Shown here: positions 11,654 to 16,106 of the stretch, one piece after another | Numbering within the stretch: position 1 is the first letter of the stretch | Layout: each line of letters starts with the position of its first letter | From: Telopea speciosissima | Taxonomy: Eukaryota; Streptophyta; Magnoliopsida; Proteales; Proteaceae | Direction: 5' to 3' | DNA: 64,000 nt | Assembly: GCF_018873765.1 (NCBI RefSeq) | Contig: NC_057923.1 | Span: 10,986,413 to 11,050,412, forward strand | Position numbers and translations under genes: made by a program | Notes under the pieces: model-generated | What the model was told of the DNA's origin: nothing | Database searches by the model: none | The model's input: the letters and a program-made list of their open reading frames with translations, nothing else

Positions 11654-12182
11654 AGTGTAATACTTTAAAGCCATGTGTTTACCTCATGGCTTGATAGCTA
11701 GATAAATGTATGGATTTCTAATATCAAAAAACTTATTATGCAAGGACACTATTCCAGTATTCCATTACTGGAATAGATGCTGGTCTCCTCTGCTTTTTCT
11801 ATTTGCAAGAATTGGATTCTTTTATTATGGAAGCTCTTTCTATATGTAGGCATTATTTGTCTCATTTAGGAATGATATAGGTAGCCGCTTCCATCTGAGT
11901 TTGTATTCGATCTTTGAGAAATAAAAGAGAGGATTGATTGGGATTTTGGCTTGCTATAAGCATTTTATTTATAGAAGCTCTATTCATGCTTATCCTAATT
12001 GTAGGTTCAATTTATACACCAAATTGTTACGCTTTTTGTGTGGGTCTGAACTTATCCAACAAGGAATTTTGTTACCTTAGGACCGTTATAGTTACGGTCG
12101 TTGTTTACTGGGCCTTCGGTCACTGATTACCCTATCATCAGGTCACCAACTTCCTTGACCTTCCGATAGTAGGCAAGAGTTA

Positions 12183-12380
12183 GACGTCCGACTTGCACGT
12201 GTTAAGCATGCCACCAATGTTCATTCTAAGCCACGATCGAATTCTCCAAGAGATTCATAGTTGTATTACTTATTAGCTTCTTTGTTCGTAGGCAATGTGG
12301 ATTCCGAATTGTCTTTCATTCTAAGACGTAACTTGTATCCATGTGCTTCACATTCACCTAGAGTTTGCTCCCAGAAATAA
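12183..12380 (-). pseudogene. rrn16: Nuclear copy of plastid rrn16 5' end and leader
   Basis: The plus strand has GTCCGACTTGCACGTGTTAA, GCATGCCACCAATGTTCAT and CCACGATCGAATTCTCC, the complement of the 16S rRNA 5' end. It continues with GAGATTCATAGTTGTATTAC and TTGTCTTTCATTCTAAGACG, the plastid leader upstream of rrn16. Substitutions are frequent. The region to the left (11660-12180) is not recognisably plastid in my reading. Confidence 0.82.
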
Positions 12381-13820: not shown

Positions 13821-15462
13821 TCAAGACCAGACCCACCAGGCCAAGGGTTCGGTGGCCTCATTCGATTGGTGGTCGACACTGGCGAAGTCGCCGGAAAAGT
13901 AAGTGCCACCATTGTCACTGCCGTTATCTTCCACCCTATCGACAGGCCCAGAGCCAGATCCATCTCCCGCCATACAGCCATGGTGGTATTCCTCCTCATC
14001 AGGAAAGTAAGAGTCGCCGCTGTCCACCAGCTGTAGACCACCATCATCGACGTCCACCACCGCGCTTCCTCCGCTCCCTGAGCTCAGCCTATCCTCCACC
14101 TTCACGCTTATCTGAACCGCTCCTTCCTCTCCCAGCCCTCCTTCCGGTTCGACCACTGGTCCAACCGGTATCTGACCACCATCTCCTGTTGCTTCCTTTG
14201 CCTGCTGTTTCTCCTTCAGGGCCACCAACTGCATTCATTTGCAGAGAAGAGTAACTCTTCTAATAAAAGATTTCTCTTCTGGGTAACAATTGCAAGAGGA
14301 GAATACATGAAAGAAAGCAAAAGCAGTTCTGGGAAAGTGAGAATATACCTCAGCTTTGAGCTTATCTTTCTCCTTAAGCATGGATTCGTAATCGGAGAGA
14401 AGGGATTCGTAAGATGACTTGAGAACATCATAATCTCTCTCGAGCTGCTTCGTCTTCCAACGAGCCCTGCGGTTCTGGAACCACACGGCAACCTGCCTCG
14501 GTTGCAGACCGAGCTTCTTCGCAAGCTGTGTCTTCCTCTCTGGCTCCAGCTTGTTCTCTGTTTCGAAGCTCTTCTCCAAGAGGTGAACCTGTCCATTCAC
14601 AAACCCCAAAGCACCACCACTACGATTTCTTTAACCCAAGAAAAAAAAATTCGTGGAAAAGGGAATAAAGGTTAATATTCAGTTCATTTCGGAATCCCAG
14701 AAAAAAGAGATAGGGCACTAGCACCTAATCTGATTTAATAAAAGGAAAAATTGAAACTTTTCTGTAAAAAGAGGAACTGAAGAATTGATGCAAGTATGAT
14801 AGATACGTTTGAGATGGAAATGATGGATCCTCTGTGATACTTATCGGATCAAATCAAACATTATCAGCTAAAGCTAAAGTGTGATTGTGAGAGGAGTTCA
14901 ATTCCCTTTACCTGCCCAGAGGTAAGGCGCCGTTTCTTTTCTGGAAGCTGTTCGTCGTAATATTCTTCATCCATGAGTTCTTCCGGCGAGCTAAAGAAAG
15001 GGCGTCTCTTCGTGCTTTCCTCCATGTTCAGCATCGATCCTGTTCCTGCGATTATAATACATTCTCCATTAATTTCTTATGTAGAAGATGATGGAGTGTG
15101 CTCTGTGAGGAAATTCGTTTCAAATTTCAAATCTTAATGAGAAATTGGTAGCAATCAAGAGCAGATCTTAACAATGAAAAGAAACCGACAGATCCCAACT
15201 GGGTTTCTGCAATACTATTCCCATGAAACTGAAGGGAAGAAGAAAATGGAAAGAGAATTGAAAAAGAAAAAACTTTTTTGCAGTGTTGCTTTCTGTTGGA
15301 GAAGAGACAGAGAAGGGTAATATTGTAATAATGTAACTTGTTGTCATGAGAAAGAAAGAAGAAGACGAAAGCTCTCTAACCTCGAAAGATGGAATCTTGG
15401 TTCCCAAGGAACAACATGTTCCCATGGCAGGAAGCATCGAAGAACAGACGACCGGAATCCAT
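13821..15462 (-). CDS. HD-Zip class I transcription factor, ATHB1/HAT5 type, complete
   Basis: Four coding exons on the minus strand: 15462-15381, 15045-14912, 14588-14349, 14228-13821, all with GT-AG introns and consistent phase, giving 287 residues. The protein starts [20 protein letters not shown]; an acidic patch ([15 protein letters not shown]) precedes the homeodomain at about 64-122, with recognition helix [16 protein letters not shown]. The leucine zipper follows directly: L121, L128, L135, M142, L149, L156. The C-terminus has [22 protein letters not shown] and a final LAWWVWS, which is the ATHB1 signature end. HD-Zip I factors bind CAATNATTG as dimers in the nucleus; ATHB1 acts in leaf and hypocotyl growth. 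The fourth zipper leucine is Met, tolerated in the family. The start is chosen because the N-terminus matches the family and the other frame (MLPAMGTCC) does not splice in phase. The large plus-strand ORF at 13721-14254 is its antisense shadow. Confidence 0.95.
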
Positions 15463-15702
15463 AGAGAAGCTCTATTGCGTCACTGCGTCGTCAGATCGTC
15501 GGAAACCAGAAGGGCTTCTCCTCCCCCCACCTCCTCCGTCCCTCGATTACTCTTTAATTTACTTTCCACAGTTGGAAAAGCAGAGATGAGAAGTACAGAG
15601 TCTACAGGCACAGCTCTACAATCTACATAAAACCCAACCCCACGTGACCCCAATCCAAACACCACAACAATTTTAGTATCTTTCTTCCTGAGAGGTTTGG
15701 TC

Positions 15703-15789
15703 TCAGAAGATCACGAACTTATGACGAAAGAAGCTAGTACTCCACAATAACCTTGTCGGAGTCTCCAATGGACATATACAAAATCCCAT
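15703..15789 (-). CDS. Upstream ORF (28 codons) in the HD-Zip leader
   Basis: Minus-strand ATG at 15789, stop at 15705-15703, peptide beginning MGFCICPLETPTRLLW. It lies about 240 bases upstream of the main start. Arabidopsis ATHB1 is known to carry a conserved-peptide uORF (CPuORF33) that represses translation; I cannot tell from this sequence alone which of the two overlapping uORFs corresponds to it. Confidence 0.45.
   Translation of the reverse strand: MGFCICPLETPTRLLWSTSFFRHKFVIF
15734..15775 (-). CDS. Second upstream ORF (13 codons) overlapping the first, with an open frame extending upstream
   Basis: ATG at 15775, stop TAG at 15736-15734, peptide MSIGDSDKVIVEY. The frame stays open upstream to about 15865 without another ATG and would add residues such as KGFVKIGGAGEYCTRDGILY, which read like a coherent peptide. 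A non-AUG start or a spliced leader exon could use it. It overlaps the 28-codon uORF in another frame. Confidence 0.4.
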   Translation of the reverse strand: MSIGDSDKVIVEY

Positions 15790-16096
15790 CACGGGTACAA
15801 TATTCCCCAGCTCCGCCGATTTTCACAAAACCCTTCAAGATTTGGGTAGATAAGTACTCAGTTAGAACTCAGAACTCTTAATTAGATTCAATCAGAGAGA
15901 GAGAGAGAGGAAAGGATCAAGAAGAGATTAGAAACTTTTTTTTTTTTTTTTTGGTGGCTTTTTTGGCTTCCGGACCGGTGAGTGTAAACGCCGGCGGCCG
16001 ATTAAGGGGTAAGGATTCAGGCGGAGTTGCGTCAGTTAGTCACACAGAGTCCTAAGGTGGTTGTCGCAGCTAAAGTTGAGAGAAGAAGGAAGGAAG

Positions 16097-16106
16097 CCTT
16101 TTATAG
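16097..16106 (-). promoter_or_regulatory. TATA box of the HD-Zip gene
   Basis: Minus strand CTATAAAAGG. It would place transcription start near 16070 and give a leader of about 600 bases before the main ATG, containing an (AG)n/(CT)n run at 15893-15910 and an A-run (plus-strand T-run) near 15938-15952. Confidence 0.6.

Follow-up and report, generated by a model that had tools for sequence, protein, structure and literature searches.

The window, a stretch of 64,000 nucleotides from the genome of Telopea speciosissima, carries on its minus strand a gene for an HD-Zip transcription factor of 287 aa (13821..15462). Its four exons, whose boundaries were placed by hand at GT/AG sites, lie at 15462-15381, 15045-14912, 14588-14349, and 14228-13821, and the main ATG is at 15462. 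A Pfam search of the product identified a homeodomain (PF00046) and a HALZ zipper (PF02183), and only the homeodomain was matched among the best 60 of 116 hits to solved structures. The protein begins with MDSGRLFF and has a tryptophan-rich C-terminal end, WWVWS. Both ends seem to resemble those of Arabidopsis ATHB1 (start MESNSFF, end FWGWP), as deduced from the primers printed in the available part of PMC3060862. Judging by its domains and ends, the main ORF would be an HD-Zip class I factor of the ATHB1 type.

Upstream of the gene there is a likely TATA box (TATAAA, 16100..16105 on the minus strand, beginning at 16105), also found upstream of the leader of a paralog located on C3 (see below). 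From this box, transcription probably starts near 16075; it may also start upstream of the box, where the window has two ATGs (16146 and 16132) with ORFs of 1 and 3 codons. Near the putative start, after the TATA box, two noncoding blocks of the minus strand (16093-16053, of 41 nt, and 16046-16011) are strongly kept in the C3 copy. The 613-nt leader contains three ATGs versus 11.0 expected (depletion P about 0.002). In both the window and the C3 leaders, the first ATG downstream of the TATA box is that of a 28-codon uORF, MGFCICPLETPTRLLWSTSFFRHKFVIF, which in the window extends on the minus strand over 87 nt including the stop (15703..15789; ATG at 15789, stop at 15705-15703). This AUG is in a strong context (G at both -3 and +4), and the distance from the uORF stop to the main ATG is 240 nt (263 nt in C3). 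The second ATG, at 15775 and in a weak context, opens a 13-codon uORF, MSIGDSDKVIVEY, that ends at 15736-15734 and is in a different frame from the 28-codon uORF. The frame of this shorter uORF is open for 44 codons from 15868 (15734..15868, minus strand) and contains GGAGEYCTRDGILYMSIGDS (GGAGEYC...SIGDS). A previous reading of the window made from its letters (the sequence-only reading) had described two overlapping ATG uORFs of 28 and 13 codons in different frames, the second within an open frame of about 44 codons, and this arrangement is what we find on the minus strand. The remaining ATG belongs to a start-stop minimal uORF in a weak context, ATG followed by TAG (15623..15628); in C3, the interval from the conserved uORF to the main ATG contains instead a uORF of 3 codons.

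The genome to which the window belongs (822.9 Mb, 1287 contigs) was searched for other copies of these features. Using each uORF peptide as a query against the whole genome, two places appeared within an E limit of 10, namely the window itself and C3:8.254 Mb, and the DNA of the uORF region recovered the same two, with the reservation that the first pass of these searches was loose and scored two candidates each, so that a strongly diverged uORF could escape. An initial pattern scan of the genome had given six places, five of them unrelated judging by their translations, and stray plant DNA, looked for by pattern in viral and prokaryote contigs, gave no matches. The four-exon structure is repeated in the C3 gene, with no premature stop. 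Its protein shares 225 of 282 aligned residues with that of the window, and the two main ORFs differ by a dS of 0.665 and a dN of 0.109. A search with the homeodomain exon produced 23 places, the window and C3 among them, and the remaining 21 all differ in place from the matches of the uORF peptides or DNA (the C1 place being the one whose leader was inspected singly). This C1 homeodomain exon, 96% identical, was considered as a copy of the gene without the uORF but, in the 9.9 kb examined, it turned out to be a gene fragment running from exon 2 to exon 3. The fragment (C1:29.542-29.544 Mb, L036:5901-7583) is 96.8% identical over 722 nt to exon 2, intron, and exon 3 and is flanked by long inverted repeats (158 nt at 88% and 91 nt at 98% complementary). 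It resembles a piece of a gene that a transposable element has captured and, being a fragment between inverted repeats, is uninformative on the loss of the uORF.

In the C3 gene, the counterpart of the 28-codon uORF (C3:8254400-8254483) reads MEFCICPLETPTRLLWSTSFFRHKIMIF, with 25 of 28 residues identical (89%) and with the ATG and the TGA kept. Twelve nucleotide changes separate the two sequences, distributed 3/1/8 over the codon positions (P 0.012 for the excess at the third), of which nine are synonymous and three non-synonymous, corresponding to a dS of 1.09 (from 15.7 synonymous sites only) and a dN of 0.045. These counts were compared with simulations in which an equal number of changes was scattered at random (20,000 placements; six stretches were tested and all are reported here). 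The 28-codon frame had 3 residue changes versus 7.8 expected (P 0.002), the part of it that overlaps the other frame had 1 versus 4.0 (P 0.008), and the third offset had 10 versus 7.8 (P 0.98). The comparison involves one pair of sequences, the window and C3, from one genome, and the P values rest on that pair. Between the two gene copies there is purifying selection specific to the 28-codon frame. For this paralog pair, the leader appears to contain a uORF with a peptide conserved under a synonymous bias, and it is the conservation of this frame in the second copy that seems to set the leader apart from chance. The C-terminal part is important in several stalling peptides; here, the copies disagree at two of the five C-terminal residues (KFVIF in the window versus KIMIF in C3), a point against a stalling uORF of the CPuORF33 type. 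The 28-aa peptide was assigned to no family in Pfam.

Immediately upstream of the uORF ATG there is a 37-nt block (15790..15826, minus strand) with 34 of 37 positions identical in the paralog. Elsewhere in the leader the identity is about 60% (134/228 aligned columns upstream and 118/194 downstream) as opposed to this 92%, an approximate background because the alignment of the flanking leader is loose; taking it as 0.60, the binomial P is about 2e-5. Even the uORF with its stop, at 75/87, is below the block. A 27-nt core of the block was found in the genome only at the window and C3 places, allowing up to 3 mismatches. We moderately favor the view that the block is a regulatory element of the RNA or DNA with a non-coding role, given that its nucleotides are conserved without a coding signature, that the core is confined to these two genes, and that the same leader has further conserved noncoding blocks. 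On the other hand, folding of four stretches from the two leaders gave nothing notable (z between -0.6 and 1.1), and a search of the leader against Rfam with an E limit of 1 was negative.

The unusual conservation of the 37 nt preceding the uORF ATG also means that a non-AUG start somewhere in the leader may exist. Within the block, the 28-codon uORF shares its frame with a CTG at 15810, 21 nt (seven codons) upstream of the uORF ATG; the frame is open between them, and the CTG has a G at both -3 and +4 in the two copies. An ATT at 15801 is in the same frame, with A and G in its context in both copies, and an ATC at 15820 is in the GGAGEYCTRDGILYMSIGDS frame, with A at -3 and G at +4, also in both. 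The CTG could provide the conserved uORF with a second start and a tighter initiation, which would agree with its preserved context and with its position in a block far more conserved than the rest of the leader. However, of the two changes between the CTG and the ATG, one alters the residue (P to R) and no coding signature can be read. In addition, the noncoding blocks near the putative transcription start are likewise well conserved, so that conservation alone does not imply translation. The whole block has three changes, too few to tell coding from noncoding. A role as an element of the RNA or DNA is no less likely than the CTG start. We regard the second start as unlikely and hold marginally less to its more elaborate version, a dual start at the CUG and the AUG of one frame, in which the choice of start tunes the repression and the block is kept for that reason. 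If this were true, ribosomes would rarely leak past the uORF.

The sequence-only reading had highlighted the frame of GGAGEYCTRDGILYMSIGDS and took its lack of an upstream ATG as a hint of a non-AUG start or of a spliced leader exon. Some features would fit a functional peptide translated from a non-AUG codon of this frame, such as GTG 15826 or the ATC at 15820. The frame runs uninterrupted for 44 codons in one copy and 33 in the other up to a common stop, 25 of 30 residues counted from the GTG are alike, its possible starts overlap the highly identical 37 nt, and the ATC has a favorable context preserved in the two genes. There is also a precedent, since the GGP mRNA of plants contains a conserved uORF with a non-canonical start, according to the available text of PMC11062462. 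Unlike in GGP, however, a normal ATG in a strong context starts the conserved peptide here, and non-AUG use would be a possibility only.

At the protein level, the GGAGEYCTRDGILYMSIGDS frame does not behave as a conserved one. From the GTG it has 5 residue changes versus 6.0 expected (P 0.34), with 1 versus 2.1 in the part before the ATG (P 0.21) and 4 versus 4.0 in the overlapping part (P 0.69), and in the overlap with the 28-codon uORF there are 5 non-synonymous changes and 1 synonymous, the reverse of constraint. Moreover, the C3 paralog has TTG in place of the ATG that opens the 13-codon uORF, the stop common to both copies is a necessary consequence of the WST codons preserved in the 28-codon frame, and the GTG has a T at -3 in the window. 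The open length is ordinary as well. The 613-nt leader has open runs of up to 76 codons, and in 5000 mononucleotide shuffles of it the maximum averaged 68 codons and was 44 or more in 96% of cases. We discarded this frame as the conserved one on the basis of the ATG lost in C3, the lack of protein-level constraint, and the ordinary length, and a functional peptide from it appears very improbable. The frame is probably incidental, mostly a shadow of the constraint acting on the 28-codon uORF, plus the 37-nt block. A conserved frame devoid of AUG does not seem to be present, because the constrained frame has an AUG and the frame without a kept AUG is unconstrained. As for the spliced leader, there is no ATG between the putative transcription start and 15789 in either copy, and thus a splice within the leader cannot supply an AUG to the GGAGEYCTRDGILYMSIGDS frame. 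A scan for donor-like patterns before the uORF found one in the window (GTGTGA at 16045) and two in the C3 paralog (L008:1229 and 1495, the latter GTGAGA), and splicing as such, without supplying an AUG, may occur within the leader. Least probable of all is that the uORFs are functionless chance ORFs: short ATG ORFs are frequent in leaders, but the frame-specific constraint in the paralog pair, the preservation of start, stop, and length, and the depletion of ATGs in the leader all argue against it.

We consider it highly probable that this ATHB1-like HD-Zip I gene has in its leader a conserved-peptide uORF of the CPuORF33/HG14 type, the 28-codon MGFCICPLETPTRLLWSTSFFRHKFVIF, an assignment based on gene, position, and length. 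ATHB1 and a rice homeobox gene constitute homology group 14 (HG14), with the rice uORF at 19755174-19755260, in the available part of PMC2075485 (Hayden and Jorgensen 2007). By our own count, these coordinates amount to 87 nt, the same as 15789-15703, taking into account that the stop is included here and that the rice table is silent on it. HG14 is entered as HD-ZIP1 in the accessible text of PMC3426882 (Jorgensen and Dorantes-Acosta 2012), and ESUCA counts it among the sequence-dependent regulatory CPuORFs (PMC7106846, in part). Passages of PMC7503886 and PMC11062462 describe for CPuORF33 a ribosome arrest, a repression in light-grown aerial tissue that depends on photosynthetic activity, and its presence in monocots and dicots, and the 5' UTR of ATHB1 is given as 370 bp in the text available of a 2025 paper (PMC12468107). 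Like CPuORF33 of ATHB1 (At3g01470), the Telopea uORF is located in the leader of an ATHB1-type HD-Zip gene and has a conserved peptide. In contrast to the ATHB1 entry, the Telopea gene is duplicated with both copies keeping the uORF, and the likeness is one of gene, position, and length; a search for the letters of the CPuORF33/HG14 peptide in the text of papers retrieved two unrelated papers only.

A CPuORF33-type uORF at this place would act as follows. With transcription starting below the TATA box, the AUG of the 28-codon uORF would be the first met by scanning ribosomes, and its strong context should lead most of them to translate it. If it behaves like its counterparts in Arabidopsis and maize, the nascent peptide would arrest the ribosome under some conditions, such as light, aerial tissue, and active chloroplasts, and the main ORF, 240 nt further downstream, would be translated less. 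We infer the transcription start, the translation of the uORF, the stalling, and the light response from such parallels and from the sequence. The claim of the sequence-only reading that CPuORF33-type control is kept in this gene is supported, though through the 28-codon frame and not through the long open frame; that reading was right on the gene and the control but not on the frame. The control is of a known kind, and the Telopea uORF is very probably a new member, found in both intact copies. It would extend a known light-linked translational brake to the two intact gene copies detected in Telopea, and this one paralog pair indicates in which of the two frames that overlap the regulatory peptide is encoded. 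To this, the conserved block preceding the AUG adds a small point that can be put to the test.

The minimum uORFs that act under boron control have TAA as their stop. The ATG at 15628 of the window, followed by an immediate stop, is similar to them but has TAG, is in a weak context, and is not kept in the paralog; these minimum uORFs are described by Tanaka et al. (2016), as cited in the available text of PMC11062462.

Other scans of the region added little. Between 13000 and 17000, Rfam gave two sub-threshold matches only, both on the plus strand and within the first intron, which we take as chance, and a bacterial promoter scan was uninformative, the host being a plant. Downstream of the HD-Zip gene, a fragment on the minus strand (12026-12211) matches bacterial-type large-subunit rRNA (Rfam RF02541, 84.8 bits) and is possibly an insertion of organelle DNA.
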